DNA of 64,000 nucleotides from Euptelea pleiosperma (lineage: Eukaryota; Streptophyta; Magnoliopsida; Ranunculales; Eupteleaceae). Below, piece by piece: positions 27,926-64,000 of this stretch. The notes below the pieces were generated by a model. It saw only the letters and a list, made by a program, of their open reading frames with translations. It made no database searches and was not told where the DNA came from. Numbering within the stretch: position 1 is the first letter of the stretch; every line of letters begins with the position of its first letter. The position numbers and the translations under genes are program-made. The stretch covers positions 310,001 through 374,000 of the forward strand of contig CM068540.1 of the NCBI GenBank assembly GCA_035048495.1, written 5' to 3'.

Positions 27926-28076
27926 TGATATTCGCTTAAAAGTGTGTATTTTTCACTGTTATCTTCTAAGCGTTATCACACTCTTCTACGTTAAACTGGT
28001 CTAATTATCCACTTTTCTACGTAAGAGTCTTTTTCATTGTGTAGAACACACTTTTCTTGACGAAATGGTATATTTG

Positions 28077-29040: not shown

Positions 29041-29071
<31 letters not shown>

Positions 29072-35606: not shown

Positions 35607-35654
<48 letters not shown>

Positions 35655-38411
35655 TCTTATTTTTTTATTTTCAAAAATCCCCTATTTCCATTAAAGGAAA
35701 TAGGGAAGCTTTAAAAGGAGAAGGATAGGGGTTCGTTCGAACCCTAATCCCTCTCCCCTCTCCTCCTCTCCTTCCCCAAAACCTTCCCCGAATCTTCTCC
35801 CACGTTTTCCCTTCTTTCTTCTTCTTCTTCTTCTCTTTTCTTCTTCGTCTTCTTCACCATTCTTCGCCGGAGTTGCAGGTTTGCAACTCCGGCCGTCCTT
35901 CTTCCTTCTTCTCTTCTCTTTCTTCTCTTCCTTCTCTTCGTCCCTCTTCCTCTCTTCCCTTTCTTCTTTCTTCTTCTCCTTCTCGTCTTCTTCTTCTTCT
36001 TCTTCTTTTCTTCTTCTTTTTTTTTTTCTTCGTCCGGTCGGAGTTGCAGAACTCCGGCCGTCTCCGCCTTCTTCTTCTTCCTTTCTTCTTCTCTTTTTTT
36101 TTCTTCTCTCTTTGCTGCTGCACGACCGCCAGCCTCCAGCTGCACCTCCACTTGCGCCTGCAACCAGCAGGCGAGTTTTTAAACTCCTCCGGCGGACTGG
36201 TTCACGTTAACCAGTCCACCTCCACCGCCTGAACCTGCTGCAGCACCATCTCCCGCCTGCCGCCACTGCATTCATCCTTCTCTGGTCGTCTTCTTCTCCT
36301 CCTCCTTCTTCTTCTTCTTCTTCTTATCCTTCTTCTCATCTCTTTTATTTTCTTTTTTTGTTTTCTTCATCTTTTTACTCCCGTTTTATACCGGAGTTGC
36401 AGCCTGCAACTCCGGCCGGCAACGCCCCCCAACCAGTCCAGTCCGCCTCTCTCTCCTCTCTCTCCCGCCGCCGTCTTCATCCTCTCTCAAGCAATAAAGA
36501 AAACCAAAAAAAAAAAGAAAAAAAAAAAAAAGAAGAAAGAAAAGAAAAAGAGAAGAAAAGGAAAAAGGAGGAGGTTGTTTCCTCCACCCGAACCAGCAAG
36601 GAGCCACCACGTTCTGCTCTTACCGTAGCCAGCAACGCTCTTGTCCTACCACCTCCTGCTGCACCCCATCGTGAAGATCTCTCTCCAAATAGGCAAGCCC
36701 ATTCATCATTGCAAACGGGGTTGCAACCTGCCACTTTCGAGTTGCTGTACCAGCAACACCACAACGCTTCCCTCCTCTGCCATCACCAGCTTCACCTCCT
36801 TCACAGGTTGGTAGTACACACCACGCACCACCAAGCAAGGCCGTGACCCACCAATCTCTTCCCCTAGAGCACAGACGGTGCACTCTTCTAGATCTCCAGC
36901 TACACGGTCATCACTTGGCCGATCCATCATTGCCTTTCCATGGCCCAAGGCACGGGGCAGCATATCACTCGCTCACGGTTGGCATTCTTCAGGCATGCAT
37001 CAAGCGTGCATCTTCACCATCATCCACTTGGTAGGTCAAGGTAACTTCTTCTCTCACTAGATTTTTCATCTAGTTCTCTTCTTTTCATTTTCTCTCTCTA
37101 TTTCCTAGTTCCCCTCTCTCTCTACATTATTTTCTCTCTCTAGTCTTTAGCATATTCTCGTTCTCTCTTTATACCTTCCATTTTCTATCTCTAAAATGCC
37201 TCCTCTCTCATTTTCTCTTTCTACCTATTCTCCTTATATTTTTCTCTCTCTAGAATGTTTTTTTTTTTAGTCTGGTTTTGACTATTGCTAATTCAAATAT
37301 TGTAAGGACATTTTGATTAATGAATGATGAAGTTTGTTTTTATCTATTATTTCTTGTGATGATCCGTCAGTTTTTGTTCTTATTCGCGCTAATCCGACTA
37401 ATCCCGAGTGCGGATCGACATCCGACACGAATCCCTATACAAATCTATCAATTTTGCAGGATAATCGGATAAAATTACAAATCTTGTTGATTCTAGGGTT
37501 TCCGTAACCAACGACGCGGAAAAAAACCTACTTTCAAAGCACTTGGCTTTGATCAAGAAGAGGAGCAAGCTCACAAGATGTGAATGAGATAACTATGCTT
37601 ATGTCTCTTCGAATGAACACTCTAATAAATCAACATTTTCTTCTCTCTCTTGAAGTGTATAAAGTGTTAATGTGTATTTTGAGAAGGTATAGAAGGGTTG
37701 TATTTATAGAATTCGTAACCCTGAGCCTTGTAGAACGTGGGATCGTGGGAACTAAAATTTTGGATCTGAAATAGACTCAATCTGTGTCAAGTCCAATCGA
37801 TTGTACTCTGGGTCCAATCAATTGAGCAAGGTCAAATCGATTGGGTATTGGGTCCAATCGATTGGACTTGTACGGATTGTACAGATGTGTCCAATCGATT
37901 GGGCTTTGACCATGTTCTGTCTCATAGTCTCCAATCGATTTTATAGAGGTGTCCAATCAATTGGAATTTGATCATGTTCTGCCTCGTAGCCTCCAATTAA
38001 TTTTACAGAGTCCTCCAATCGATTGGGCTATGTCTAATCGATTGGAACCTGTCAAATCGATCGGACTCTCCCAGAAGTCAATAACTTTGACTAAGACTTG
38101 GGTCTGTCCAATGACTAGGTTTTACCATTATATTTTATTCATTTTAAAACTTATTCCTATGGCCACTAAGTCACTTACCTTCTAAGTGAGCGTACACGAT
38201 CTATAACCAACGAATGAGCAGTTACTCAAATGACTCCTGTCGTCAACCGTCTGATTCTTGTTGTCTCTGTCTTCTAGTCTTCATGTAGTCGACAAAGTAT
38301 GCGTACCACGACATCTTCACACTACAATGGTGCTCGTAGGAACGGTTACAAGAATATTTTTTTATGTCATACGGAATCTTTGCCAAATTGAATATGAAAA
38401 TGTTCCTTATA
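33967..38411 (-). mobile_element. Family C copia solo LTR, split by a B solo LTR
   Basis: On the minus strand it begins TATAAGGAACATTTTCATA at 38411 (first base pair mutated from TG) and ends ...CGGTGGTTATTTCA at 33967. Identical ATTAT flanks it (33962-33966, 38412-38416). Without the nested B LTR it is about 1,546 bp, like the copia LTR at 21751 (1,540 bp). The B LTR entered at AAGCA. The array of about twelve CCAATCGATTGG-type motifs lies at 37790-38075. Confidence 0.88.
34643..37536 (+). mobile_element. Family B solo LTR nested in the family C solo LTR
   Basis: TGATATTCGCTCAAAAG ... CCTACTTTCA, 2,894 bp, flanked by identical AAGCA (34638-34642, 37537-37541). Order: terminal block, tRNA-like module near 35100-35160, ATCCGTCGATC block, (TA)n run at 35610-35651, palindrome at 35681-35705, C/T-rich region with hairpins at 35867-35892 and 36391-36415, splice-donor-like AAGGTAACTT at 37038, and U5 end. 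Long Arg/Glu/Lys-rich or Phe/Ser-rich open frames at 35744-36846 are readings of (CTT)n tracts. Confidence 0.93.
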
Positions 38412-44904: not shown

Positions 44905-45980
44905 TGATATTCACCCAAAATTATTTATTTTAAGCAATTATCCTTTTAGCATTATCACACTCTCCTACGTAAAACTGCACTATTTATCCACTTTTCTACG
45001 TAAGAGTCTCTTCCATTGTGTAGAACACACTTTTTTGGATAAAATGGGCTATTTGAATGAATTAAACACATTCTCGGAAGTCTAGATATTAAGTCATTTT
45101 GATTAAGTCTCATTACGTGTTTTTTCTATCCCAGGAAACCAAATCGGACGATTATATAGATTGCAGGCCAACAAATAAATGCTAGAGTCTAGGACCCAAG
45201 CTCAAGAGCCAACAGGATGAGGATAAGAAGATACATGCTAAATGCTGGGATAGCCAGAGAGTTGGAAAACCTTAGAGAAGATCAAGAGAGAAGAGAGTCA
45301 AGCACTCCGAGAAGAGACTAGAAGATTAAAGGTTAATCAACTAACACAAGACAAAGGCTTGCTTAGTTGGAAAAGCTTGCAGTATACCAAATCAAAGACC
45401 AGGGTTCAAGACCCTCTGCTAGCATTTTCTCTTTAATTTTATAATATTTTCTCTCTCCTCTCTCTAGATCTTCATTCTCTCTTTACCCTAAAATCTCAAC
45501 CACTCGATCCTCTCCTTTCACAATCTCTCCTTCCATGATCACTCGATCCTACGACCTACCTTGGTCGACCTCCACTGGCCGATAATCCATCCGATCATCG
45601 CCACCCCAGTCTACCGTCTGATCGCCAGTAGATCATCTATCTTATCATCACCCATCTCAAAATCCAACGGTCATCTTTTTCTTCTTCTAGATCCTATGGT
45701 CACGACTTGACCTATGTGATTATGACCCCTACAGAGATGGACAGCCCATATTAAAGATTGACTTATTTTTACGAAAATGGAAAGGTTCTTTCAAGAAAAG
45801 GGCAAATCGAGTTTTAGAAAGTTTTGAAAATCAAAATTTTTTATTTTATTTTCAAAACTTATGAAAGATTTCTTAATGAGGTGGCATTAAAGGGGATTTC
45901 ATGGGATTCTTATAAAGGGCAAGTTTTATTTTTAAAAATAAGAATATATGAGTTTCTAAAACCTTGAAACCGTGAGTTTC
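44905..45980 (+). mobile_element. 3' LTR (family B2) of the gypsy-type element, interrupted
   Basis: TGATATTCACCCAAAATTA and the following 250 bp match the start of family B. The middle resembles the reverse copy around 15427-18945, not the common B copies, hence 'B2'. It contains a tRNA-like module at 45359-45413. At 45981 a reverse B LTR begins ('tgaaagtagggtttttcc'), so the rest of this LTR lies beyond the window. Its position directly after a polypurine tract links family B to the gypsy-type element whose PBS is at 26254. Confidence 0.65.
45351..45428 (+). other. tRNA-like module inside the LTR
   Basis: GCTTAGTTGGAAAAGC can form a canonical D arm (4-bp stem, loop AGTTGGAA). TTGCTTAGTTGG fits an A box, and GGTTCAAGACC, 44 bases later, fits a B box, the exact spacing in tRNA genes. 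The T arm CAGGGTTCAAGACCCTC pairs at four of five positions. The acceptor and anticodon stems do not pair, so it is a tRNA-derived relic, not a tRNA gene. The same module with equal spacing occurs in other B LTRs (for example 35100-35160 and 59465-59535). Confidence 0.5.
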
Positions 45981-47218
45981 TGAAAGTAGGGTTTTTCCAC
46001 GTCGTTGGTTACGAAAACCCTAATCTCAACACATTTATAATTTTTATCCAATTTTTCCTACAAAATGATAACTTGCATAGTGGTACGTATGTCGAATCCG
46101 CACTAGGGATTAGTTGGATTAGCACGATTCAGAGCATGAAATAATGGATTTTTCACAAAAATTGCTACCAAAGAAAAATGGAGATGTGAGAATGTTGATC
46201 AATTTAAAACATTTGTTGGTGATTTTTAGAGAGAGAAAATGCTACAATCAACTAAAACATAATTATCAAACTGCTTTTATAAATTGATCAAAATTCTTAC
46301 AAACTTGAATAAAACATTAAAAACTAACTAGAAAACAAATCTTACTCAAGCTACAAAGCATATAAAAGAACTTAGAGAGAAATCTTACTCAAGCTACAAA
46401 GCATATAAAAGAACTTAGAGAGAGAAAGTGGAGAGAACTAACCTAGAGAGAGAAAGTGGAGAGAACTAACCTAGAGAGAGAAAGCTATAGATAGATAATG
46501 GAGAATGATCTTTATTATATGAACCATACCTAAGGAGATCTGCTTGCTAGACAAGGAGAGATGTAGATGAAAGGGGACATGTAGAGTCCAATGGAGAGGG
46601 CTGCAAAGCTTGCGATAAGACATGTGATGATTGGTGGTGTGTGTCAAGAGTTGGCCCATGTGAGGGGGACGTTGGGCAGCACTTTGCAGCCTCCAATGGC
46701 TCGTGAGGAGCAGATGGTGGGTGCGGTTCTGCAACCAACAATGGAGAAGCTCGAAGGAGACCCCTGGTACAGCCCAAAGTGGAGTGAACCACGTATTGGT
46801 GGTTGTTGGCGATGAGATGCACAGTGGTGCACGTCTTGCACTTACAAGTAGAGGAGTGAATGATTGTCCAATAGCTTCAACAGTGGTGAAGGGTGTGGAC
46901 GAACAGCAGGTTGCTGGTGAAGGCAATGGAGAGACGATGGACTTGCAGGTGGATTTTTTTGGACAGGACCACCGGAGTTGCAGTCTGTGGTGGTGCGTAG
47001 AGTGATGAGCCGGTGGTGCTTGGTCCTGCAAAATGAGTTGCAAGGCAGACCTACAACAGTGGTTATTCGTGGGTGGTTCACATGACAGCGTGGTGCTCAC
47101 TGAGATGAAGAGAGGATCGTGTGATGCATGTTGGTGATGCTCCAATGGAGAAGAAGATAGCTTTGGAGAAACGGTGGAGATCGTGGAGGAGTTGGTTTGC
47201 TACCAACGGCTTCCTCCT
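45981..47218 (-). mobile_element. Reverse family B LTR, left part, split by a CACTA element
   Basis: The plus strand opens with TGAAAGTAGGGTTTTTCC, the complement of the family B 3' end, followed by the U5 block and a purine-rich strand equivalent to the C/T-rich transcribed region. A 43-bp direct duplication ('cttactcaagctacaaagca...') lies at 46341-46426, followed by duplicated 'gagaaagtggagagaactaac'. At 47219 the CACTA element interrupts it. The remainder resumes at 62870. A 224-codon minus-strand frame (46471-47145) has only the His/Thr/Pro bias seen in other B LTRs and is not called a gene. Confidence 0.82.
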
Positions 47219-47645
47219 CACTACTACAAAAGACCCTTTAGACTACGGTTAAAAGCCATAGTCTTTTGTGTTAGACAACGGTTAAAAATTACCTCTAAAA
47301 TCGTAGTCTAGACGCGTGTAGTCTAAAGTCTACACAAAAGACTACAGTTGTTAACTGTGGTCTATGAGCTCAAACGCTACGGTGTTGTCCAAAATTGTAG
47401 TTGTAAGACTACATTAAAGAAGACGCTTTTCCGAACAAATGTAGTCTCAACAGTTCTTAACCGTGGTCTATAAGAGTTAAAACAAGGTTAAACATCCGAC
47501 AAAGACTATGATTTTATCCAAAACCGTACTCATAAGTCTATACAAAAGACTACGGTTTCCAAGAAACTGTATTCTTTAATTCAAACATTTCATTTCTTAA
47601 CGACTACGATTTTGCCCAAAACCGTAGTCTTTTTTGTTAATTCTA
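47219..47645. repeat. Left CACTA terminus and subterminal repeats
   Basis: After CACTACTACAAAAG, words such as 'gactacggtta', 'aaaaccgtagtc' and 'gactacatt' recur more than ten times in both directions. They are the expected binding sites for the element's own DNA-binding protein. Confidence 0.85.
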
Positions 47646-47804
47646 AAAAAAAAATTACAGAATCACTATTATGACTAAAAAAAAAAGCTAAAAATTCAAA
47701 AATAATCAAAATACTGTTGAAAATACAAAAAACTTAATCATTATAGGTACCATATGATGCATACACAGTTCTATAATCATAAAATAAAAAACCATCCCCT
47801 TCAT

Positions 47805-47960
47805 CTCAAGCGGGAAGTAAGTTGGTTGCTTCAGTTTCCCATCATTAATGCATGGCCTCGAGTAAGAAGTCAGTTAGTCACTTTAGGTTTTCATCATTAC
47901 TGCATGACCTCGAGTGTGAAGTAAGATGATCACTTCAGCTTCTCATCATTAATGCATGGC
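47805..47960 (+). repeat. Three 52-bp tandem repeats inside the CACTA element
   Basis: Units start at 47805, 47857 and 47909 with 'ctcragygngaagtmag' and end 'catcattaatgcatgrc'. They are noncoding. Confidence 0.85.
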
Positions 47961-48369
47961 AGCTCTGTAGAAATGAAAGTAAGAATAGAATATTCAGATT
48001 TTAAATTAAAAAATGAACCGAGACTGTAAAGTTGCAAAATCTCATAATCCCTCCTCTATGTCCTTGTAACCAAACACCCTGAAACTTTTTCCTAACATTA
48101 CTAGTTACAACTTGCAACTACTTGAGCCCATTACTCCATTGGTTGAAATTCTATCATGCAACCATGAGGTCTTGAGCTATAACACATTCTAAGTACCAAA
48201 AATTTAAGAGTGAACAAAGCTTCATCGATCCTACATTACAATTTGAGCTCAAAATGATTTTATACAACAAAGAGAAGTTGGACATATTCTGAAAGAAGCA
48301 TAAGTGATGGTTGTAGTGTTACTTTTGCAAGCAAATGATGTTTTAGGGTGCAGAACCAACCTGAGAATG

Positions 48370-48463
48370 AGGTCTGATATCATCATAGTCATCGTCTGAA
48401 GCAACGATCTGAGATTGATCGTGTGAGGTTTGCTTTTTGTATATAACTCCCTCTTCTTGTGTC
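48370..48463 (-). pseudogene. Unidentified captured exon with acidic stretch
   Basis: After an acceptor-like TTTGTAG, the minus strand has an open stretch TQEEGVIYKKQTSHDQSQ followed by IVASDDDYDDIRPHSQ, then a donor-like CAG|GTTGGT. The splice signals and acidic DDDYDD run suggest a genuine exon from a host gene, but I do not recognise the family. It lies in line with the other captured exons on this strand. Confidence 0.4.
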
Positions 48464-48987
48464 TACAAACCAACATTATCAATCACCGAAACTCATATCA
48501 AACACTTGATGTTGACAAAAGAACTAAGTTATAACAACCCTTCTATCGAAAGCAAGACTGTACCATAAAAAAAATAAAAATAGATGATTAGCAAAGTTTG
48601 ACCATGTTCACCAGTGGTTTACACCAAGAGCAGACAAGGCCTTCTAGTTTCCCACCTACCTATGATCTGAGCAGCTACAAGTTTGAATGTACCTGCTCGA
48701 ATGCAAATTTGGCTATTTTGAAATAATAAGGGAACTACCACTTTATTTCAAAATACCCCAAAAATAACAGTTATATCTAGTTAGGAAGTAGTAGCTTTGT
48801 CCTTCAAGTCTTAGTTTGTTGATTAATCCTTCTCTAAGATTGTAAGATGCCTTGCATACAACGAAGATTATTGATCCTTCATATTTTCAAACTTCAAAGA
48901 CAATGACAACTTTGAGGGTACCTCAAGTGGGACACATTTAAGTCATAGTATGAAGGCACCATACTAATTAAGTGTGTCAATGGGCAC

Positions 48988-49122
48988 CTGATTAACCAAC
49001 ACACATATGTATCTTCCTTCCACTTTGAGCTTCTCTAGCAGTAGTGCCTCAGCAACATCCTGGACATCTACTATCTCAGATACTCTGCTTTCCACTGTAT
49101 CAAGTCCATCTATTTTTGGTAA
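48988..49122 (-). pseudogene. Captured exon fragment of a cinnamoyl-CoA-reductase-like enzyme
   Basis: The frame reads DTVESR, then IVDVQDVAEALLL and GRYIC, close to the (F/I)VDVRDVAEALLLVYEKPEAEGRYIC region shared by plant cinnamoyl-CoA-reductase-like and tetraketide-reductase-like short-chain dehydrogenases. These NADPH enzymes reduce CoA esters or polyketides. Here only about 44 codons survive, without the Rossmann glycine motif or the catalytic YxxxK. A short deletion has removed the Tyr/Glu-Pro bases between ALLL and EGRYIC. The frame then runs to a stop. The piece is a passenger of the CACTA element and cannot be active. The call is from motif recognition. Confidence 0.6.
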
Positions 49123-49728
49123 TGTCAGACGAAAATGTAACACAGATATGAGAAATGTTTAACCTTCAAAACTAACACCCCATAAACCAGTCAGACCCAT
49201 GGCCACCAATCATCATAGACCCAGCCATGAAGTATACTCAAGCTTCACACCTTGCCAAGCAAGATGAAATTCGACTGACTCGACTCTATTTTTAGGCTCT
49301 AAGTATTGAGTTCAAATTCTAATTTTACAAAGTCATGGAGGGGGTTTCTGGACAATGGTTTTAAATACTATGAAGATGATGTGCATTGAGAAAGACGGAC
49401 ACATAAAGCATCATAATGCAGTGGTATGAAGTCATATAGTACCATGTATTTTGACTTTCAGGACTGAGTTATCAACTTGCCACATCACATAATGCATGTA
49501 TATGTATATGTACAACCTTGCATGTATGAACACATAGATACACACACCCACACGCAGCATGTACGTAAGAAGATGGATAGCTATGGTATAATGACATACC
49601 TTTCAAAATTTTGATGAGAAGCAAGCTACTAGCATTGATTGTGGGTTGCAGCATCAGTCCACTAACAAAGCAAGAATGTTCCCTCTTCTGTGCAACAGTG
49701 GTGAAAATCACAGCCAACCTTTTGTGCC

Positions 49729-50041
49729 TTTATAAACTGTATTTCATCTTGCAGCTGCTTTGCTGCTTCATCACTTCTTTGTTTTTTGCTTTAGAAGTTG
49801 AACATGACTTTCTTGTTTCTTCTTAAGATCCAAAATCTGAATTGTAAAACCGAGGCAGATATTAAAATTTTAAAAGATCAAGATAACATTATGAACACCT
49901 CAGAGAAATTGTATTGTCACCTGTGTTTCAAGTGTCTTTAATTTGTGTGCATGAATATCTTACATTTTCTATGTTTGCCCATCAAAAGTAGCAGCAAGAC
50001 TTTCAACTTCAGCCAACAACCGGTCCCTCTCTTGATGTAGC
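49729..50041 (-). pseudogene. Captured kinesin-4 (FRA1-type) coiled-coil exons
   Basis: Two minus-strand exons with an intron between them resemble the stalk of plant kinesin-4 (FRA1 / KIN-4), a motor that affects cortical microtubules and wall deposition. Exon one (50041-49921) reads HQERDRLLAEVESLAA, then stop-containing KM*DIHAHKLKTLETQ. The intron runs from GTGACAATAC to TTTTACAATTCAG. Exon two (49835-49730) reads DLKKKQESHVQLLKQK, a frameshift, then KQLQDEIQFIKAQK. Two stops and one frameshift make it dead. The motor domain is absent. A B LTR inserted at GTAGC (50042-53186) separates the first exon from its upstream part at 53192. Introns show it came from genomic DNA, not mRNA. Confidence 0.78.
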
Positions 50042-53000
50042 TGAAAATAGGTTTTTCCCGCGTCGTTGGTTACGGAAACCCTAATTCCAACAAGATTTGT
50101 AATTTCGATCTGAGATTTCCTGCAAAATTAAGCTATGCTTTGCATGGTGGAAGTATGTCGGATGTCGATCCGCACTCGGGTTTAGTTAACGCAATCAAGA
50201 ACATAAAATGACGGATTTTTACCAGAAAAATGCCAAAAATTTATGGAGTGATGAGAGTGGTGGATTTGTGATTTTTTTTTTTTTTTTTTTTTAAAACATG
50301 ATTTTGGGAATTTTCTAGAGAGAGGATTTATCAAAACTGTAAACTAAATCAACAAACATGCCAAAATCAATTTTTATTCATCAAACAAAATAAAGTCTAC
50401 AATGCCTGGATCCCATTACTGAAGCAAATAAAAACAAATTAATCTAGAAAAAGATTGAACTAAGAGAGAGAAATTAGAGAGAGAAAGGGAGAGTGAGATA
50501 GAGAGAGAGAGAGAGAGAGATTGAGATGAAGAAACAGAAAATCTTACCAACAGCCGTCGGTGGTGCTTCGGCAAAGAGAATGGAGGATCCGGTTGCATGC
50601 CCGAAAAGGAAGGTCGTGGAGTCGTGAGGGCAACAACTTGGAAAGTTGTTGACCTGCAACTCAGATGGCCGACCAAGATGATGGTGGTTGCAGCTGTCCA
50701 ACCATGGAAAAGAAGATCCAGGACGATCGATTCGTGGAGAAAATAATGGTGGTGTCGACCGTCATGCACTGTGATTGGAGGGTAGGCCAGCAACTGTATG
50801 TTGCTGGTCGTGATGAGAAGATGATGGCCAAGGCGGTGCTGGTAGAGGTGGATGGCGGTGCTAGACAGACGGTGGTGCACAACAAGTTTGTGGGGGCGGT
50901 AGCAGATGGCTATGGTGAAGAATGGAGGGAGCAACAACGTGGGTGTTGTCCTGCAATAGAAGACAACCAGCAATGTGCTAACGACCTGCTGGTGTTGCAA
51001 TGGAAAGCCGGTGGAGAAACAGTCCAGCGTGGAACAAAGCACGACCTCCAAAGCCGTGGTGTTGGGTTGCAGGCAGCAAGTCCTTCACGTGGAGAAGATG
51101 GTGGTTTCTTTGGGAGGCAGAACTGACCACTGGTGAGAGAGCTCGAAGCTCGCCGATTTTAATGGCGAGACGAAGGTTGTGGGCGGTGATGTTCAGCCAG
51201 CTAGAGTTGTTGCAGCGGTGGAGAACGGCATGGCAGTTAGGTAGAGCAGCAAGGGAGGATTTAGCGTCTTTGAAGGAGTTGCCGGCCGGTGTTGCAGGGT
51301 GCAACACCGACAAGGATACTTGCTAGTGAAGACGCTAATCGAGGTGGAGAGGACGAGATGGAGTGCTGACCTCCTTCTCTACTTCTTCTTCTTCTTCTTC
51401 TTTTCTTTTTTTTTTTTTTTTTTTTGAGAACGTGGTAAAGAGTGGGAGATATCCCTCCAAAAATTTGGAACGTGGGTAGAGAGTTGGAGAAGAGAGCGAA
51501 CCTGGTTTTTGGGCTCGCCGGAGTTGCAGGTTGTGGCCGGAGTTGCAGGCTGCAACTCCGGTGGAAAAATGGTGAAGAAGATGACGAAGGTGGAGGAGAA
51601 GTGGAGGAAAACAGCGGCCAAGAGAGGGGGAAAAGGGGCAAGAGAGTTTTTGGGAGAGAATGGAAGAGATTGGAGGGGGATTAGGGTTCGAACGAACCCT
51701 TCTCCCTCCTCTTATAAAGCTCCCTATTTCCTTTAATGGAAATAGGGTATTTTTAAAAATAAAAAAATATTTTTTTTTTATTTATTTATTTATTTATTTA
51801 TTGTTTTTTTAAGTAAAAATCTACTTTTCTATGGGGAATCTCCTCAATTAGTGGACCCCCCATTTTTTTGAAATTTAATTAAAATTCTTTGGAAATTCAC
51901 GGGGTCCACTAACTGGTCGGACAGCGGGTCGATGATGATGGGCCCGGCTACTGGCCCACATGGATTTATGATGTCCATTGTCTCACAAGATGATGTGACA
52001 GACGGTCTGATGGCGATCAGATGGATGGTGACTTGATGGTGACAGCGGCCAAGAGAGGGGGAAAAGGGGCAAGAGAGTTTTTGGGAGAGAATGGAAGAGA
52101 TTGGAGGGGGATTAGGGTTCGAACGAACCCTTCTCCCTCCTCTTATAAAGCTCCCTATTTCCTTTAATGGAAATAGGGTATTTTTGAACATAAAAAAATA
52201 TTTTTTTTTTTAAAGTAAAAATCTACTTTTCTATGGGGAATCTCCTCAATTAGTGGACCCCCCATTTTTTTGAAATTTAATTAAAATTCTTTGGAAATTC
52301 ACGGGTCCACTAACTGGACGGACAGCGGGTCGATGATGATGGGCCCGACTACTGGCCCACATGGATTTATGATGTCCATTATCTCACAAGATGATGTGAC
52401 AGACGGTCTGATGGCGATCGGATGGATGGTGACTTGATTGGGACCCAGATTGGTAGATCGACGGATCTAGAGAGATCCAACGGTCCGATTGAAGATCCAA
52501 TGGTCCGATGGAAGATCCAACGGTCAGAAAGCTAAGGGAGATGAGATAGAGCCGAAGGGTAGGAGTTCTGGGGTTAGGTCAGTAGATTCGAGGATCGAGA
52601 GATGAAGAGAGAGAGAGAATAAGAAGAGATGAGAGAGAAAGTATCAAAAAAATGGAGAAAAGTATTGGCAGAGGGTCTGGAACCCTGGTCTTCACTGTGA
52701 CCATCCTCACGCTTCTCCAGTAGAGTAGACTATCATTCCTTACTGACTCATGTGGCTTTAAACGCTTTGGTCCGTCTCTTGGTCATTGGCTCTCCTGTTC
52801 TTTTCGTTTTTCTGGGCCGGCTTTTTGGTCCTCCTATTCAGCCCATAGTTGGCCCATATCTTTTAGTCATAGCATGTGGGCTCTTTAAGCTTTGATAATG
52901 GGCTTTCCTGATCGATGTGGGCTCGCAAGTCTCGAGAATTGTCCCATCGGGGTTTCTTGCGACAGAAGAAGCGCGTAATGAGACTTTATCAGAATGACTA

Positions 53001-53186
53001 TATGTCTAGACTTCCGAAAATGTGTTTAATGCATGCAAATATACCATTTCGTCCAGAAAAGTGTGTTCTACGTAACACAAGAGACTCTTACGTAGAAAAG
53101 TAGATAAATAGAGTATTTTAACGTAGGAGAATGCAATAACGCTAAAAGGATAATTGCTTAAAATAAGCACTTTTGAGCGAATATCA
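50042..53186 (-). mobile_element. Family B solo LTR with a duplicated promoter, inside the CACTA element
   Basis: On the plus strand it runs TGAAAATAGGTTTTTCC ... GAGCGAATATCA, 3,145 bp, with identical GTAGC on both sides (50037-50041, 53187-53191). It is longer than its sisters because of a 431-bp tandem duplication (51611-52041 and 52042 to about 52450). This repeats the TATA box (complement of TTTATAAG at 51711 and 52142), the palindrome and the block with ACAGCGGGTCGATGATG. An A/G-rich hairpin GCCGGAGTTGCAGGCTGC-type lies at 51537-51561. It interrupts a captured kinesin-4 exon. Confidence 0.92.
51611..52450 (-). repeat. 431-bp tandem duplication of the LTR core promoter
   Basis: ACAGCGGCCAAGAGAGGGGG occurs at 51611 and again at 52042, and everything after it, including the palindrome and TATA box, is repeated. 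The first unit breaks at 'gacttgatggtga' where the normal LTR continues 'gacttgattgggaccc'. The first unit has a longer (TTTA)n run. Confidence 0.9.
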
Positions 53187-53191
53187 GTAGC

Positions 53192-53755
53192 AGTTGTGGG
53201 GAGGCTTTGTCAATGATCAACACATAAACAGAACCATTCTTCATTGTTCCCATTCACTACAATTCCTTTAGAATTGATTCTTTCATCCTCACTAAATAAA
53301 CAGAACCATAGGCTAGCACCCCATACATAAGATCCTTGACATAGTTAAGGAAAATTTATTGTTATTTGTCTTTTCAATATAAATTTTTCAGAAATAAACA
53401 CTAAGTCCTGCTCCCATTTTATAGAGTATACATAGCATATACGTACATTCATGTGCTTATTTTATCTCTGCAGTTCATGCTATATACACAAACGTACCAC
53501 GAGTGCACATGTACATGGACAGATGTAGAAATGAATATAAACACATGCCTATGCATGTGAGTATCTATTTTCTCTGCATACACATGTATGAGTGGTAAAT
53601 GAACATTGCAAGTTTGATAGAAAACATGACACTTGAAACACAATAAGTTAAGCTAAGTAGCCAAATAAATTTCAGCAGATCCCCCTATTTTAGGTCTGCC
53701 TTAACTTTTAACTTGCTGAAAGAAAGATTCTTGCACAAACCCTCATGAAATGGAT
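53192..53755 (-). other. CACTA interior between kinesin-4 and kinase fragments
   Basis: It holds the continuation of the kinesin-4 piece (the minus strand reads '...ccccacaact|gctac', joining the exon across the LTR insertion) and intron-like A/T-rich sequence. No further exon was recognised with confidence. Confidence 0.35.
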
Positions 53756-54388
53756 TTATCCATCCATCATAGGGAGTGGAGAAAGGATAAGTCTTCTAAG
53801 AGAACCCAAATCACAAGTATTACCAGATTCTTTTGATATTTTGGCATGACATTTAACATGTATCAGGGGTTGACACCACAAGCAATGCCATGTAGGATAA
53901 GCATCAAGAAAAGGAATACCACATGGTTCATTGCAGTGATAACAAAAATTAGACATCTCAGGGTTCTCATCCAATTTAGTCCATTTACACACTTGCAATC
54001 TTTTGTTGCATACTGGGAACAATATAAATGAGCTGCTACACCACAAACAAAGCAACGATGGAGAGGAAAATGTGATGCTGACTTTGCACCAATAGATTCT
54101 TGGCACACCAGGGAAGTTAAACAGACGCAACATGTGGACGACTGCCCACCATAAGCAATTTCCTATCCATGTATGATGTGATAAAGGAACTAATTTCTTC
54201 CAGACTTTCTTTTCGCTATAGTAGCATCTTTAACCCAATTCGGTGATGCCTTTCACTGCCAATTTAAGGAATGCATATATAATAGCTAGAAATCCAAATG
54301 ATCCAATGACCAGCCATCCAAAAACATAAGGACCATAACCATCTAATTTGGTTAGAATTCTCAAAGGTAAAATAAGCCAATCTATCAT
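53756..54388 (-). pseudogene. Captured N-terminal exon of a plant diacylglycerol kinase (DGK1/DGK2 type)
   Basis: From ATG 54388 the minus strand encodes MIDWLILPLR, then a membrane segment FGWLVIGSFGFLAIIYAF, then stops at 54230. Read in shifting frames the same exon continues KKVWKKL.PLSHHTW, CCVCLTSL, the first C1-type zinc domain HRCFVCGVAAHLYCS...DCKC, and the second FCYHCNEPCGIPFL...WHCLWCQPLIHVKCH, then CDLGSLRRLILSPL. This order, one membrane anchor plus two cysteine-rich C1 domains, is that of cluster I plant diacylglycerol kinases, which phosphorylate diacylglycerol to phosphatidic acid at membranes. At least three frameshifts separate the blocks, and the catalytic domain is absent. 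It is a dead capture. It lies between MAP65 and kinesin-4 pieces on the same strand. Confidence 0.85.
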
Positions 54389-54985
54389 TATTAAACTACT
54401 TTACTTTTCTCTAGTCTCAATTTTCTATTACAGTCTACGCATTCAATAATAGCCAGCACCAAACGGACTTTGCAAACAAAACCTGAAACAATAAAAGAAA
54501 AATATCATCCATGATAAACAAGCAGAGTCAGCACAGGTAAATGAATTCCAGTTATTCTAGCACAAGGTAAAGAAGAGTCAAAACAATTTAATTAATTTCT
54601 TGCTTATGATTACCTATAAAAAGTGTATATTCAGAACTTCCTAAATTTCTCCACCACTTATTGAGACATAACCTTGAGGTTGGAGTAATTTGTAGAAGAT
54701 CAAGAGCTAGCGTGGAAGAGCTGAATGGTGATGCCTATAGAATTCAGACAAGAAAGAAGTTAAAAGAATAAAAAATAAAAAGAAAGAAAAAGAAATTATC
54801 AAAGTATAGAGAACACCCCCCTCGATACAAAAAGAAAAATTTCCAGATAAGCTGAACATTCATCATAAATATCTAACGCTCACAAATCAAGTCCTGTATA
54901 GAGACTTTAAACGACAAATTTCAAATCTGAAAGATAGATTAAAACTTATGTGATATAAAAATTTTGAATACGGGGCCAAGTAAAC
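54389..54985 (-). other. CACTA interior between the kinase and MAP65 fragments
   Basis: A/T-rich, intron-like sequence with no recognised exon. The junction between the two captured genes must lie here. Confidence 0.35.
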
Positions 54986-55521
54986 CAAGCAATCATCTGT
55001 CAAGACCAAATTTGGGTATGAGCCACCCTTTTTCGTTTGATTGATTCTTGCTTCCGAACTTCTTCGATGTCGGAAGTTTCTATCCATGTTTTCTTTTCGA
55101 TTCAAAACTTCATCTTTTGATTTTGTTATATGTGCTTCAATATTGGCCAGAAGTTCACAAGACCCACGAGACCTGGACAAGAACATTTACAATGAAATAT
55201 GAACCTTAATAATTAGCACTACTTTTCAGTTGAAGCATAGATATCATACCAGAGTCTATATCAATGCATCAGATTTCTCAGGGGCGGTGCTCATACAGGC
55301 TCAATATGTGCTTTTCTACATACTTCCTCCAACCCTACCCTCTTTTTCATAACTAGTTCTTTCATTCTGCTGGATTTCAGTTTAGTCAGGCTCTCAACCT
55401 CTACAGTTGCCTGTCAAAGACAAAATGGAGATCTAAGGATCTATCTTTCAATTATTAGCAGAAGTTGAAGTGGTATCCAACCACCATACCTATTCAATAA
55501 TCTCTAATGAATGACCAGATT

Positions 55522-58500
55522 TGTCACGCCCCGAATCCGGATACCCAAATACGATCCGAAAATCCGTGAATCGACCCGTATCCAAACCTAAATGTGATCC
55601 ATGAATGTCCCCTAGTGGTCCAATTAGGTCAATTAGACTACTAAGGTTCATTCGAAAACCCACTAAATAAAAAAAAAAAAAGTCTAGATGTAGAAAACAA
55701 ATAATTAAAATAATTCAATCAATCAACTAAATGTGAAGAGAAGGAGGTGAGAACATGCTCTCAATCAAAGGCTTACATGCCCGTGAAAATAAATAAATAA
55801 TATTTTAAAATAATCAAAATAAAGTCTTCTAAAATGTGGGATCGACTCCCAAATCCTCGCCGATCTCCTCGAATGCACCAGATTCTTTCGCCTCAAAATC
55901 ATCTCACGTACCCGACTCCTCAAAATCTGAAAATGGTATCGGTGGAGCACTGTGAGCCGAGGCCTAGTAATACAACAGTGTGCATGGTATGATATCATAC
56001 TATACAAGTTTTTTAATCAAGGTATGCATCTCAATCGTATAATAAGGATGACATGAATATGAGGGTGAATGCAAGTGAGTACGGGATGTAAATGCAACTA
56101 GTACCCATAACCACATAAGGTCTCCATCTCCTTCCCGCACCAGGAGCGGTCTCAACGACCCATCTGCAGGATATAATAACGTCTGGGGCCTTTCACCCTA
56201 GGGTACCGAACCCTGATTAATTGATAAAACTAATATAAACGTATATAATATACTTCAACCTCGTTCTCTTATGCACCCCTTATGTGAAATGACGTGATGA
56301 TCATGGTATGACAACAAGATAATACTAGGGCTACATGGTATAAGCACACATGTATTTAACATTTAAATAATAATATAAAATGAAACATGATCATCAAAAG
56401 TGATAACATGGGAACGAATTAGGGTTAAACATGAATAACATGTAACAATCACCGAAAGTCATGATCAACACGGATAAAACAATATAAGTGCAAATCGCAA
56501 GAGAATCTAACACACCATTGCCAAACTCTATGAGGGATCCATGACACAAGGTCGAACCCTAAAGAGGGATCCAAGACACTTGGCTGAACCCTATGAGAGA
56601 TCCAAGACACATGGGTGGGATCCCCATGTATACAAGTATAGGTCAAACCATCTAGGTTTAATAGTCAATAAGTCATGACCGAACCACTAAGGGTTCCCAA
56701 AGCCATTAATCATTCAAAATCCAAGAAATAGGTAGTTCACAGAAAATATAGTTTCTTGTAAAAATCATAACTAAATAAATATAAATTAAAAAAATATAAA
56801 CTTAATAGATTTAAAAACTAGATTCACAGAGGTTTTAGGAAAAGTAAATAGAAAAACATTCAGATTCAAAATATAGGTCGAAACCCTTAACAAAGTGGGC
56901 CGGACAGAATCTAAAATTTTGGGTTTTAAAAAAAAGTCTCGCATATTTGAAAAATCATACCTTAATCAATACAAATCAGAAAAATACAAACTTAAAGGTT
57001 CTAGAAACTAGATTGATAGAGGTATCTATAAAAAATAATTAGAAAAATATTTAGATTAAAAATATAGATCGAAATCACAAGTGAAGTGGACTGTGTAAAA
57101 TCTAGAATTCTGGTTTTTTTGGTAAAGTCCAACAACTTAGAAAAATTATAACTTAATCAATATAAATTGGAAAAATAAAACTCAAAGGTTCTAGAAACTA
57201 GATTGATATAGGTATCTATGAAAAATAATTAAAAAAATATTTAAATTAAAAATATAGATCGAAATCCCAAGTGAAGTGAACCATGTAAAATCTGGAATTC
57301 TGGATTTTTTGTTAAAGTCCAACAACTTAGAAAAATCATAACTTAACCAATATAAATTAGAAAAATATAAACTAAACGGTTTTGGAAAATAGATTTATAG
57401 AAGTCTTTAGGAAAAATAATTATAAAAATATTTAAATTATAAAAGTATAACAAAAATGATAAAGAACATAGTCATCCGTTATAGGTGTAAAAGAAATAAT
57501 GGCCAAACCCATCATGGTGGCCCAAAATAAAGATCAACCCAATAAGGATAAAATAAATATTGTTGAAATTAATTTATAATGAGTATCAACCATTATCTTA
57601 TGAAAGAGAAACAAAATCTTGAAGAAAAATAAGTATAGGATGGATCAAACACACTTACCTCAATGTTTCTTGAATTTTAATGAAAATTAAAAGTTTCTTC
57701 AAATTTGAAAGTCGTCGGATCGTCCTCTCTCTCCTCGGAGTATGTTCTTCTAATCGGAGTCTCCGTCAATTCTCCCTTTTTGCTCGAGTGTGATCGGTGC
57801 CCGGATGAAGGTTTAATGGAGCTTTCTCTATTCTTCAATGGAGTTGGGTTTGTGAAAGCTTCTAAAGCTTTAGGGTTTTCATAAATAGGTTTAGGGAAGG
57901 ATTAGGGTTTCTATTTTAGTGGAATTCGTAACTATCAAAGGGATGACTTTTTCAACCCTCAAAAACTTATATTTTACATTACTAATGGGTTAGAAATGGA
58001 CCCAAGGCACATATATAACAACTAGGCTCATTGAAGATTATTATTAAGCCTAAAAGGTATCTAGATTGGCCATATGGGCCCACCCAACAATAATAACACA
58101 AATAATTATTTATTAATTCAATTAAACTATATTATATATTTTAAAAGTTCATACATCAAAGTATTGACACATGTCACGCACATAAATCACATAAAATAGT
58201 CTAAATACACAAAAATAACAAAAAAGTTCAAAGCCCCGGAAAAGTGTTAAGCTGATATCGGAATGACCCGAAAAGTGATTTGTAGGTCCCACACTCCTAT
58301 TAAATAAATAAAATCTAATTAAATATTAATTTTAAAAAAATATAAGAATGGTAAGAAAGTTTAAAAAATTACGAAAAATACTATTTTGTCAAAATCTCTC
58401 AAAATCTTCGACTAGAGTTTTCATGTCTCAAGAAAGGTTCCAAATTTCACAAGTAAGTTGGTAAGGATAAAATAGGAATATTTTTGGTATCTTGGGCCCA

Positions 58501-58780
58501 CAAAATATTTTTTTTATAAAAGTTCTGGACTGCTAGCTAGGAAAATAAAAAGTCCCCTACAAGTTATGATTTATTATTTTTAGCAAGAATTTAACCCTAA
58601 AGAGTGAGTTTCAAAAATAGCAGGTTTTTCAAAGTTGTCAAAATGAAACCAAATTAAATACACATACTCAAGCATGATATTAAACTATAAAAACAATAAT
58701 AAAAGTATGAAAAAAGTTTAGATTTTCATTATTAGGTGAATTTACCATAATACCCTAGAACGAAAGTTCAGGGTATTACA
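55522..58780 (-). mobile_element. Family A solo LTR, copy 3, inside the captured MAP65 exon
   Basis: On the plus strand it runs TGTCACGCCCCGAATCCGG ... AGGGTATTACA, 3,259 bp, with identical AGATT on both sides (55517-55521, 58781-58785). It is colinear in reverse with copy 1 (439-3659), including the 185-bp array (about 56740-57400) and the TATA-like CATAAATA complement at 57880. Removing it and one AGATT restores the reading VIES|GHSLEIIE across the MAP65 exon, independent proof of the ends. Confidence 0.95.
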
Positions 58781-59010
58781 AGATTCAATAACTTCTGGTA
58801 CTGCTGACCCAAGGACGAGAGCAATCTTTCCAAAATGAATCTTTTCCTCTACAGGTGAATCCATCAAGTTCCAAAGTTCAAACAATGATGCCACGATAGA
58901 TTTCAACTACAGTTCGAAACAGGGTTTTACTTACATGATAGAGACCAAATGAAGTCAACAATGAAAATCTATTATACCTTTTGAATGTGGGTTTTACTTA
59001 CATGACATAG

Positions 59011-61907
59011 TGATATTCGCTTAAAAGTACGTATTTTCCACTATTATCTTCTAAGCGTTATCACACTCTTCTATGTAAAACTGCTCTAATTATCTACTTT
59101 TCTACGTAAGAGTCTCTTTCATTGCGTAGAACACATTTTTCTGGACGAAATGGTATATTTGCATGCATTAAACGCATTTCTGGAAGTCTAGATATGAAGA
59201 CGTTTTGATCAAGTCTCATTATGTGTTCTTCTCTTGCAGAAAACTCAATCGGGCTATTCTCGAGACTTGCGGGCCCACGATCAACCACAGAAGCCTAATA
59301 TCAAAACTTAAAAAGCCAACATGCTATGACTAGAAGATACAGGCCAAGTACGGGTCAAGTCAGAGGATCATGGAGCCGGTCCAAAGAACCAAGAGAGATG
59401 GAGAGCCAATGACCTAGAAACGGACCAAAGCAGTCGAAGCCACATGAAATGAGGAGAAAATGATAATCTGCTCTGATGGCGAAGCCCGAGAAGAGAACAT
59501 ATTGAAAATTAGGGTTCTAGACCCTCCGCCAGTAGTTATCTCTGTAGTCTGTAGAGTTTTCTCTCTCATATCTTTTATTTCTCTCTCATCTCTCTTCATT
59601 TCCTTATACATCACCACCTGATCCTCAGATCTACTGACCTAACCTTAGAATTCTTGCCCATTGGCTCTGTCTCATCTCCCTTAGCTTTCTGACCGTTGAT
59701 CTTCCATCGGAATGTTGGATCTTCCACCGGACCGTTGGATCTCTCTAGATCCGACGATCTACCAATCTGGGTCCCAATCTAGTCACCATCCATCCGATCG
59801 TCATCAAATTGTCTGTCACATCATCTTGTGAGACGATGGACACCATCAATCCATGTGGGCCAGTAGCCGGGCCCATCATCATCGACCCGTGGCCCAACCA
59901 TTTAGTGGACCCCGAGATTTTAAAATGCTTTAAATCAATATTTAAAAATAAAAATAGGGGGTCCACTAAATGGGGAAATCCCCCAAAGAAAGGATTTAAA
60001 AAAAATTATTTTTTTTTCTTATTTTTTATTTTTGAAAAATCCCCTATTTCCATTAAAGGAAATAGGAAAGCTTTTGAAGGAGAAAAGAAGGGTTTGTTCG
60101 AACCCTCATCCCTCTCCTTTCTTCTCCTCTCTTTCCCCCAAAAACCCTTCCCCCTTCTCCTCCTTCTTCTCTCCCCCCTCTTCTCCCTTTTCTTCTTCCT
60201 TCATCTTCCTCCTTTCTTCTCCGGCAACTCCGGCAGGTGGCGCTCCTCCTCCTCCTCCTCCTCTTCTTCTTCTTCTTCTTCTTCTTCTTCTTCTTCTTCT
60301 TCTTCTTCTTCTTCTTCTTCTTCTTCTTCTTCTTCTTCTTCTTCTTTTGTGGTTCCGCCATTAGAACAAAGCAACGGTCTGCAAGAAAGCAGACCGTCAC
60401 TACCACATCCAATGATAAGTCCAACCACCATTGGAGGTGGTCCGCCTCTTTCCATAGCTGCCCACCACCATCCACCATTAACACCGGCAAGATCTTCCCA
60501 AGTTAAGGTTTCTTCTCTTTTCTCCTTCTTCTTTCCCTCCTCCTTCTTCTTCTTCTTTTTCTCCTCTCGTGGTTCTTCTTGCTACTGCGCCTGTGAGCAG
60601 CACCACAACCTACCGCCCCTGTCTTCTTCTCGCTGGAGTTGCAGACCTGCAACTCCGGCCGCCGATTGCATAATCCACACTCTGGACCGCCCCTCTCTTT
60701 TTTCCTAAACCCCTCTCCCCAGTCGATGTTTCTTTCTTCTTTCCCTCCTTCTTCTTCTTCTTCTTCTTCTTCTTTTCTTCTTCTTCTTCTTCTTCTTCTT
60801 CTTCTTCATCATCTCTTTTGCTCACCGGAGTTGCAGGTCTGCAACTCCGGCCGCCTACAACTCCGGTTGTTGCTCGGGTTCTCTCCGCCTCTCTTTTCAA
60901 CCGCCTGAGCAAACCTGCTACCACCTCAACTCGCCACCACCTATTTGCAGGGCCACAGCCCTTTCTATCGTCTTCACCATCGCCTCCCCTCACCGGAGTT
61001 GCACACCTGCAACTCCGACGACCCACTTAAAGTCAGTCAGATCTCCCTTGGCTTATCTCACTAGGACTGGTTCACTCCACCTCCTTCAATCACCGACATA
61101 CAGGTGTGCGCCTTCACACCAGGCTAGATCCCCTCCATCTTCTCAAATCGTCCAACCACCACGTGCTCCACAAGAGGGACGCCCCCCTCTTCCTTCAAAG
61201 TCTCCTTGAAGAACTGCTACCTGCTATTTCCTCCATCCTTAGTTTGCTGTGTGTTGCACCCATTGCAACACCAGCAACAACATCATCAAACCAACTCTAT
61301 CTTCACTTCACGTGAGCACCTCACCAATTCCTTCATCAAGCAAATCACCACCACTCTTGCCCAGAGCACCATGCCTTAACTTTGGGTCGAATCACTAGCT
61401 GAACCTCATATCCATCATGCACACTCCGGGTAGGTCTTCATTGGTAAGGTTTATCTCCCTTCATTCTCTTCTTTCTCTCTCTAAAATTCCCTCTTCTCTT
61501 TCTCTCTCACCTTTTATCTCTCTAGAGACATCTTTCTCTCTCTTCTTTTCATTCATTTTCTCTCTAGGAATCTTCCTATCTATCTATTTTTCCATTTTTC
61601 AATCTCTAAAAATTTATATTTTAATCATGCTTTCTAGATTAATTTTTTTTTTGTTTGATTTTTTATTGTAAGAACATATTCGATTGAATGAAGTTGATTT
61701 GAATAAAGTTGCGTGCATTCTCTGTAAGTTTTTTCATCATTTTATCTGTTCTTTATTGTGCTAATCCGGCTAATCCCGAGTGCGGATTGACATCCCACAC
61801 AAATCCCTATATAGAATCTCTGAATTTTATGGGATAATCGGATAAAATTACAAATGTGTTGGAATTAGGGTTTTCGTAACCAACGACGCGGAAAAACACT
61901 AGTTTCA
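59011..61907 (+). mobile_element. Family B solo LTR inside the captured MAP65 exon
   Basis: TGATATTCGCTTAAAAG ... CACTAGTTTCA, 2,897 bp, with identical CATAG on both sides (59006-59010, 61908-61912). It carries the tRNA-like module (about 59465-59535), the palindrome (60041-60066), a (CTT)n tract of about 95 bp at 60256-60350, hairpins at 60633-60658, 60824-60849 and 60993-61017, and the U5 end. A 299-codon Ser-rich plus-strand frame (59809-60708) and its poly-Glu/Lys mirrors are readings of the (CTT)n tract. Confidence 0.95.
60256..60350 (+). repeat. (CTT)n microsatellite
   Basis: About 30 uninterrupted TTC units lie in the transcribed part of the B LTR. A second tract is at 60748-60806. 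Confidence 0.95.
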
Positions 61908-62289
61908 CATAGACCTTCCAATGTATTGTTGCTGATGTTTGTGGCTTGTTCTAATCCCGTCTCATGCATGCTTGTATGCACTTCACTCACGATCTTCCCA
62001 AAATCAAGTCCAAGAATGCCACATAAAGAATGAACTTTGTTTACATATTTTGGAATCTTATGAAGGCGGTTAGACTACAAGCAGAAAATAATATGGTGAT
62101 CCAGGAGCGCTACCATCAAAAGTTTTGTAGGAAAGAAACAGAGAGAGGGATTAGGGTTTGTTTCGCTACCCTAAGAATGAGAGATTAAGGTTTGTTCCTC
62201 CTCAAGAGAGGGATTAGGGGTTGTTCCTCCCGAGAACTAGAGAGTCGGGATTAGGGTTTGATAAAGGAGAACGAGAAAGAGAGATGGAA

Positions 62290-62494
62290 ACAGACCTGAG
62301 AGACGCAACCCTAGTAGCTGTTGTGGTAGCAGCGGTGGTACCGGGCAGTAGTAGTAGGCAGAAATGAGACAATGATGAGTATTGAGTTGTTGCTCGTGGA
62401 AGAGAAAATGAAGAGACTGAGAGGCTTGGGAAAGAGAACGAAGAGATAATTGAGAGACGGATCGAGAATGGGTCGGGGGTATCTATAAATTATA
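62290..62494 (-). promoter_or_regulatory. Possible promoter and first exon of the Pack-CACTA transcript
   Basis: On the minus strand a TATA-like TATAATTTATA (62494-62484) is followed by a C/T-rich leader ('cgatccgtctctcaatt', 'cccaagcctctcagtctc', 'gctactagggttgcgtctc') and a donor-like CTCTCAG|GTCTG at 62296/62295. The layout is that of a plant 5' untranslated exon, just inside the subterminal repeats and upstream of all captured exons in the same direction. Transcription has not been shown. Confidence 0.4.
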
Positions 62495-62869
62495 CTACTA
62501 CAGTTTTAGCAAACGACGTAGCCTACACTCTAGAAAGGCTGAAGACTATGGTGTTTACAAAAATCGTGGTCAGTTTAGCCAAATAGTAGGCTACAAATTT
62601 GACAAACACCATAGTCATTTGTCTGTATAATTATATAGTCCTAAGCCATAGTTTTTGTTAAAACCTTAGCTTAACGGTTTCAGACTACTGTTGTAGTAAA
62701 AATGGTGGCCATTTTGAAGTCCTTTAGGCGACGTTTTTTCGGAACATAGTAGTCTTTTGTTTTTTTAAATTAATTTTTTTTAAATTAGACATTTCGACTT
62801 CGGTTTTTAATAAAATCGTAGTCTATCTATTTTTTAACAGTGTTGTCTAAACTATATTATGTAGTAGTG
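62495..62869. repeat. Right CACTA terminus and subterminal repeats
   Basis: Repeats such as 'aagactatgg', 'aaaaatcgtggtc' and 'ttttaataaaatcgtagtc' lead to the terminal GTAGTAGTG at 62861-62869, followed by CCT. Confidence 0.85.
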
Positions 62870-64000
62870 CCTCCTCTCTCCTTCATTCCCCTCTTCTTCC
62901 CTCTTCTTGTTCTGGGTTTCCTTGCTGGAGGAAGGAGAAAAACGGTAAGGGCAGGTGGGCTGACGGTTGTGGAGAGAATGGAGGAAAACGGTCAAGAGAG
63001 TGGTAGCTTGGAGAAAGAGAATGAGAGAGATCCCTTGCACTAGGGTTCGGCCAAGGTTTTAAAACGTGGGAGAATGTGGTCCCCCCTTTCTTTGGAAATA
63101 AGCCACATTAGCCTCTTTTGATGGAGATTTAATTTCTTCCCCTTTTTTACCCCAATATGCTTCCTTCTTAACAGCTATTTTTCTCCTTAATTTCCACCGC
63201 CCAACACACATCCAACAACTTTTCTATCTTTGTGCACCATATGACTCCTTGCGTGAGATCTGGACCATTCATTTGATTCATCTTATGTTTATTTAATGGT
63301 TCGCCTTCTAAACAAGATCTTTCCTTTGACAATCCAACGTATCGATCGGCATAGATTTAAAATGTCTATCCACCTTTCTTTTGGTATGCCACCAGATCTT
63401 CTTGATCCCACCTTCATCCATATGCCAAACCGTCTCTCTTTCTTGTTTGATAAAACTACTACACTTTTAAAACTAGCAATCACATCTTTCTTCTTTAACA
63501 TGGACCAACACTTTTATGAACATGTCCCATTTTGGATTGCCACCTCATATACGCTAAAAACCACCATTTCTTAGAACAACAACTTTTTTAACACATCTGG
63601 CCCCACCAACTATTTTGACTTTTCATCCACTATTTGATAACCAGTAACTGTTGGATGCTCCTATCGAACTCACGTCAATTTCTTTTTGTTTTGCAACCGT
63701 TTATCATTGTTTCTTAATCACTTGATAGCCATCGTATTGGGTTGTGATCTCATGGTTCTTTCTATCTTTTGGTGATCAACCATTCAACAATAATTCTTGG
63801 TTCACCTTTGTTGGTGTTTCATCTTGACAAGTAAATTATCATGTAGCCACTATTCAGCCCATGCGATGGTCCATATGCTTGGTTTCACCTTGTCTGTCAG
63901 CTTAGTCTGAGGCCCAGAAGCTTGCAAACATCTCATGTTGGCATACTACTCTTCTTGTTCGAGATACTCACAGTTGACCGTGGATTGATCGATCGGATCT
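62870..64000 (-). mobile_element. Reverse family B LTR, right part, runs off the window
   Basis: The sequence continues the LTR cut at 47218 (the CCT duplication, then purine/pyrimidine-biased leader, 'cactagggttcggccaagg', and U3-like sequence to the window end). U3 differs from the common B copies and is closer in style to the outer copy at 27926-33403. No gene was seen. The short plus-strand frames at 63296-63574 and 62840-63043 lack recognisable domains. Confidence 0.6.

Follow-up and report, generated by a model that had tools for sequence, protein, structure and literature searches.

A Pack-CACTA element of Euptelea pleiosperma with an interior probably copied from at least eight unlinked loci

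The stretch of DNA analyzed here, which we call the window, comprises 64,000 nucleotides of the Euptelea pleiosperma genome (positions 310,001 to 374,000 of contig CM068540.1, written C1:310001-374000 below, where C numbers denote host contigs). At window positions 47219-62869 lies a CACTA transposon, the captured DNA of which was traced to eight unlinked loci of the host genome (613 Mb in 247 contigs compared): genes for MAP65, DGK2, a COP1/SPA-type protein, pyruvate kinase and KIN-4A, a CCR-like cluster, and two anonymous loci. Six of these eight loci are identified genes, and 4267 of the 4836 interior bases (88%) could be assigned. We estimate at roughly 85% the probability that this is a nonautonomous Pack-CACTA element, its interior pieced together from genomic DNA that was copied from eight or more unlinked loci. 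The features are the following, with strands referring to the window and percentages to identity with the donor:

47216-47218 (left copy) and 62870-62872 (right copy), no strand: target-site duplication CCT, read directly
47219-47988, plus strand: CACTA family left end, with inverted terminal repeat, subterminal repeats and a 52-bp tandem repeat; common to other copies
48018-48929, no strand: source A, anonymous; C1:21147871-21149917, three blocks, 79-94%
48999-49674, minus strand: source B, one exon of a CCR-like reductase and the intron sequence around it; nearest relatives in a tandem cluster at C3:57.18-57.28 Mb, with four long matches of 72-77%
49704-53197, minus strand: source C, KIN-4A (FRA1-type) exons and intron, residues 548-627 of P0124; donor at C13:9.34 Mb, 94-95%; a solo LTR (long terminal repeat) lies inside
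50042-53186, minus strand: solo-LTR-like insertion of 3145 bp with TG..CA ends and 5-bp duplication GTAGC
53296-53671, minus strand: source D, beside and between pyruvate kinase exons; donor at C5:42.87 Mb, three blocks, 76-90%
53668-53766, minus strand: source E, second half, COP1/SPA-type gene; donor at C6:15.646 Mb, 93%
53755-54543, minus strand: source F, part of the first coding exon of DGK2 from the start codon (residues 1-225 of P0001) and about 155 bp upstream; donor at C3:14.018 Mb
54581-54995, minus strand: source G, anonymous locus; C4:3.964 Mb, four blocks, 85-97%
55007-55076, minus strand: source E, first half, COP1/SPA-type gene; donor at C6:15.6456 Mb, 83%
55079-62138, minus strand: source H, MAP65-6/7-type, parts of four exons with introns (residues 182-390 of P0037); donor at C4:43.716 Mb; two solo LTRs lie inside
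55522-58780, no strand: solo-LTR-like insertion of a second family, 3259 bp, TG..CA ends, 5-bp duplication AGATT
59011-61907, plus strand: solo-LTR-like insertion of 2897 bp, TG..CA ends, 5-bp duplication CATAG
62141-62869, minus strand: CACTA family right end, with subterminal repeats followed by a TATA-like site and a CT-rich leader, which read left, towards the captured DNA

The element is bounded by 10-bp inverted ends, CACTACTACA starting at 47219 and its reverse complement finishing at 62869. When all CACTA starts (75) and TAGTG ends (49) of the window were screened at spacings of 0.2-20 kb, no other perfect 10-bp pair flanked by a matching 3-bp duplication turned up. Subterminal repeats resembling AGACTACGGTTT (three mismatches at most) occur in both orientations, with counts of 16 within the first 432 bp and 12 within the last 380 bp, far above the means of 0.91 and 0.63, respectively, and the maxima of 4 obtained with 200 shuffles of each end. 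In the host genome, the left 301 bp were found at no fewer than 39 places besides their own locus (44 rows) and the right 957 bp at no fewer than 38 besides their own locus and the MAP65 donor (42 rows), both counts being lower bounds for which 40 of 151 and 40 of 171 candidates, respectively, were scored. Since the ends recur at many genomic places, they belong to a real CACTA family. The element exhibits four hallmarks of CACTA (En/Spm) transposons: inverted repeats starting with CACTA, a 3-bp duplication, bidirectional subterminal repeats, and copies with the same ends elsewhere. An earlier reading of this DNA, made by a model from the sequence only, had placed the termini, the CCT duplication and the subterminal repeats correctly; the possibility it had raised, that the pairing of ends and duplication is coincidental, is refuted by the recurrence of each end at nearly forty other places.

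Sharing within the family is uneven along the right 729 bp. Their outer part is widespread and the inner leader is present at fewer places, the innermost portion (62141-62259) matching a single place among the matches listed (C5:10.31 Mb). Judged by eye, the TATA-like site and the CT-rich leader form a candidate promoter facing the captured exons. At the other end, the 52-bp tandem repeat (47829-47960) is also matched in the related elements L046 and L056. Two loci, L003 and L006 (C11:35.34 and 34.74 Mb), each carry three copies of the 158 bp that begin the left end, spaced by about 210 bp. As for a transposase, no Pfam transposase family scored above its cut-off in 10 exon pieces and 20 chosen stop-free open reading frames, one exon piece giving a subthreshold match to rve_3 (E = 0.031). 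A match of a plus-strand frame to Endonuc-PvuII (E = 0.0013), also below the cut-off, was set aside as chance. A comparison of the joined flanks against the remaining window sequence yielded no empty site: the right flank did not align, and the left flank is similar to the terminus of the local LTR family.

For the three insertions nested in the interior, solo LTRs are the most economical reading of their sequence. Those at 50042-53186 and 59011-61907 belong to one family and lie in opposite orientations. All three are younger than the CACTA element, which measures 6335 bp once they are removed. Elsewhere in the window, copies or parts of the 50042-53186 family, with TGATATTCGC ends, are found in both orientations at 15649-16667, 27926-29321, 34643-36009, 44905-46147 and other positions, and a full-length copy of the second family (87% identical) occupies 439-3659 on the minus strand. 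A 282-residue frame at 20693-21541, also on the minus strand, resembles a retroelement zinc-knuckle protein in its motif.

Most of the remaining interior matches host loci, six of them identified genes; an interior of host-gene DNA is what sets Pack-CACTA elements apart. Donors were searched by whole-genome comparison and local alignment for window positions 53187-55521 (13 of 13 candidates scored) and 47970-50041 (19 of 19). They are distributed over six contigs, with two donors on C3 and two on C4, each pair about 40 Mb apart, so that in the host genome they are not adjacent neighboring genes. The block formed by sources D-H has no second genomic place in the whole-genome comparison of 53187-55521. 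Minor matches at 53196-53230 and 53238-53305 point to other places and may represent minor additional sources. The sequence-only reading had counted four or more sources; their multiplicity stands, and their number rises to at least eight with three that had been overlooked (pyruvate kinase, the COP1/SPA-type gene, and the locus at C4:3.96 Mb). Its view that capture was from genomic DNA with introns retained is supported, the KIN-4A, DGK2 and MAP65 donors being recognizable across several exons.

Identification of three of the gene pieces, made earlier as MAP65, a DGK-type kinase and kinesin-4, is confirmed by searching exon peptides against 5.8 billion proteins. The DGK2 and MAP65 peptides, run as one joint query, retrieved 666 proteins (120 listed), with DGK2-type diacylglycerol kinases matching source F at a best E of 9.6e-71 (Nelumbo) and MAP65-6/7-type proteins matching source H at 6.3e-59. 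The corresponding donor alignments show 86% identity with gaps and 93% without for source F, and 88% and 91% for source H. For source C, KIN-4A kinesins matched at a best E of 1.5e-26 in a search that retrieved 634 proteins, the 120 listed ones having kinesin-type domains or names; this list has no bearing on the CCR piece. Searches of the PDB with the MAP65 and KIN-4A pieces gave nothing relevant. The functional link once suggested between MAP65 and kinesin-4 finds nothing beyond coincidence in its favor, the other sources being unrelated. The donor gene of source D shows a pyruvate kinase barrel domain, and the captured piece is apparently intron sequence. The donor of source E has COP1-family similarity (E = 6e-31), and we refer to it as COP1/SPA-type.

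Source B required its genomic relative for identification. On its own, the peptide matches a CCR-type reductase best, but weakly (E = 0.01; its reversed control matched only ubiquitin, at E = 4.7), and a Pfam scan of the piece showed no reductase family. In the matching frame, the closest relative in the genome has 64% identity to it over 42 residues, and this frame matches kavalactone reductase (E = 5e-16) and cinnamoyl-CoA reductases (7e-11 and 1e-9), which settles the CCR-type identity and upholds the original call. The relative is part of a tandem cluster of CCR-like genes or gene pieces at C3:57.18-57.28 Mb, with 14 matches at about ten places over some 100 kb. For source A, which the sequence-only reading had presented as an exon without a name, the locus is now found at C1:21.15 Mb, while its exon status is doubtful as the open frame is not conserved there. 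Searches with the exon gave no relative, only the subthreshold rve_3 match. We considered its 34-residue exon as a clean gene piece and rejected it, since the nearest genomic relative is without the second half and has a shifted frame; source A is not counted as an identified gene. For source G, the name DUF5917 (E = 0.0089, below the cut-off) was too weak to be adopted.

The arrangement of the fragments bears on how they were acquired. The COP1/SPA fragment is in two halves that keep the order of the donor; sources F and G lie between these halves, and about 400 bases of the donor are absent. Where E meets F, the COP1/SPA and DGK2 donors have TTTATCCATC in common, a 10-bp overlap; at the D/E junction the donors have AATT in common, and at the E/H junction there are two extra bases. 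When 200,000 random breakpoint pairs were drawn from the COP1/SPA and DGK2 loci, at least 10 matching bases occurred with a frequency of 2e-5 and at least 4 with a frequency of 0.02, which makes the TTTATCCATC overlap telling. Together, the split fragment and the 10-bp overlap favor copying of an ectopic template at a break inside an already captured fragment, and the sequence argues for stepwise gap filling with template switching within the element.

A related element on C13 offers a partial comparison. It has the left end, and its source A breaks off at the equivalent of 48651 and continues directly as KIN-4A from 49799; the KIN-4A stretch extends beyond that of the window element. None of sources D-H was present in the 20 kb examined, and no right end was found there. 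We rejected it as an intermediate lacking the CCR piece, since source A and KIN-4A of the window element pass the C13 breakpoint and match their donors there. A common ancestor may have carried A, B and C, after which the C13 copy would have suffered a deletion and the window copy, along with its gain of D-H, would have lost part of KIN-4A.

The captured pieces have decayed. In five blocks (A, D, G and the smaller E piece were left out), and presuming unchanged donors, C/G-to-T/A changes outnumber the reverse by 11:1 in KIN-4A, 23:10 in DGK2, 41:13 in MAP65, 4:0 in the larger COP1/SPA piece and 40:27 in CCR, with 9, 15, 27, 2 and 24 changes, respectively, in CpG/CHG context. In-frame stops and frame shifts are present in the MAP65, DGK2 and KIN-4A pieces, and several exons retain splice-site-like borders. 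Cytosine loss and frame damage thus point to an element that is methylated and silent, with fragments that probably encode no working protein.

All six identified genes (CCR, KIN-4A, pyruvate kinase, COP1/SPA, DGK2 and MAP65) are sense on the minus strand of the window, as scored by agreement of the donor-gene strand with the match strand, source A being left out. Hence, the single direction claimed earlier holds for each of them, and source G is a seventh sense piece if its open frames are real. Under equal odds, the two-sided chance of six out of six is about 0.03.

These findings lead to the preferred reading, in which breaks or stalled forks inside the element would have been repaired by copying ectopic templates, with switching guided by microhomology. 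Such repair would have taken place more than once, interleaved with transposition, and the element would then have been methylated and silenced; three retrotransposons may have inserted afterwards and been reduced to solo LTRs. Several points weigh against it. Sources A, D and G consist of short matching blocks only (76-97%), the locus of source A may not be a gene, and part of source G (54922-54995) matches two further loci at 86%. For source B, identity to the nearest relative reaches only 77% (82% when gaps are ignored), and the true CCR donor may be lost. Of the 10 junctions between sources, 2 overlap, 2 have 2 unassigned bases and 6 have 11-98, while the AATT overlap at D/E is weak, matches of at least 4 bases having the frequency of 0.02 given above; the reading is slightly weakened by these six unassigned stretches and by a D/E overlap that is within chance. 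Judging from its sequence, the C13 relative is better seen as a deletion derivative than as a clean intermediate. The polarity of the C-to-T changes depends on the donors having stayed the same, and the co-orientation of six genes is not compelling alone.

An alternative is that neighboring CACTA copies fused and moved jointly with the DNA between them. This tandem-insertion model was proposed for Arabidopsis Pack-CACTA elements and is backed by clusters in rice and maize (PMC8903248), and copies of the present CACTA family are abundant in the genome. We nevertheless consider fusion unlikely here, as many rounds would be needed for eight unlinked sources, and as the split COP1/SPA piece with its 10-bp overlap suits internal gap filling better. 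Moreover, the interior (47651-62489, 14,839 bp with LTRs) shows one subterminal-repeat match (two mismatches at most) against 12 and 4 in the ends, so that remnant ends are not evident. Helitrons are rolling-circle elements without inverted terminal repeats or a target-site duplication. That one of these, of the sort that in maize holds several gene fragments gained stepwise (PMC3288121), was trapped inside the CACTA element is highly improbable: no hairpin with a CTRR end was detected on either strand of the LTR-free element within the stem, loop and distance limits of our script, and the MAP65 block reaches within 2 bases of the family right end. The splice-site-like borders would also suit remnants of true neighboring genes enclosed by coincidental CACTA ends, an explanation to which we give next to no credence in view of the unlinked donors (six contigs, and about 40 Mb apart where two share one), the uniqueness of the end pair in the window and the recurrence of each end at nearly forty other places.

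The element has partial parallels. The closest precedent is Tgm-Express1 in the soybean wp allele, a 5.7-kb CACTA element that contains exonic and intronic pieces of five unrelated genes and whose fragments enter the host transcript as alternatively spliced exons (PMC1947982). The two elements are alike in type, in their similar length and in their unrelated, intron-containing gene fragments, and Tgm-Express1 is a precedent for many sources in one CACTA element, which the sequence-only reading had regarded as unusual when co-oriented. Whereas Tgm-Express1 is transcribed and lies within a gene intron, the present element sits among retroelements and is known from sequence alone; it differs further in that its eight unlinked sources have been traced in the host genome, that later captures split one of its fragments, and that it contains three nested solo LTRs. 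Splicing suggests a common direction for the Tgm-Express1 fragments, yet the paper describes FPK-derived reading frames as minus frames. Pack-CACTA and other Pack-TYPE elements of Arabidopsis, rice and maize are likewise nonautonomous, with family ends and coding DNA from several loci; fusion of neighboring insertions is favored for them, in contrast to the internal gap filling favored by our split fragment (PMC8903248). Animal Pack-TIRs, formed by gap filling, also have captured DNA inside the element and microhomology at breakpoints; they are mostly single copy, and one captured piece per element is described (PMC8277862). Maize Helitrons share the stepwise gain of several gene fragments from different chromosomes (PMC3288121). 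In the available parts of the literature surveyed, we met no CACTA element with more located sources, and we do not claim that none is in print. The element is thus of a known kind, unusually rich and well documented.

By analogy with Tgm-Express1, the sense orientation of the identified genes would allow the captured exons to be joined by splicing in a transcript that starts from the right-end leader. A further idea, which we regard as doubtful, is that capture or survival is directional: only fragments in sense from this leader would be kept, the element being a growing exon cassette that would yield spliced chimeric transcripts, with new pieces placed inside old ones by template switching.

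There is dispute over how exons of many genes come together in plant transposons, the choice being between fusion of neighboring insertions and gap repair. In the present case a single genome offers the donors, a number of the junctions, a split fragment and a partially shared relative for inspection, which makes the order of capture testable. Most interesting are how many sources there are, how one capture came to lie within another, and whether fragments follow a common direction as a rule, and the element is a concrete case for asking whether captured exons are retained in the sense direction.

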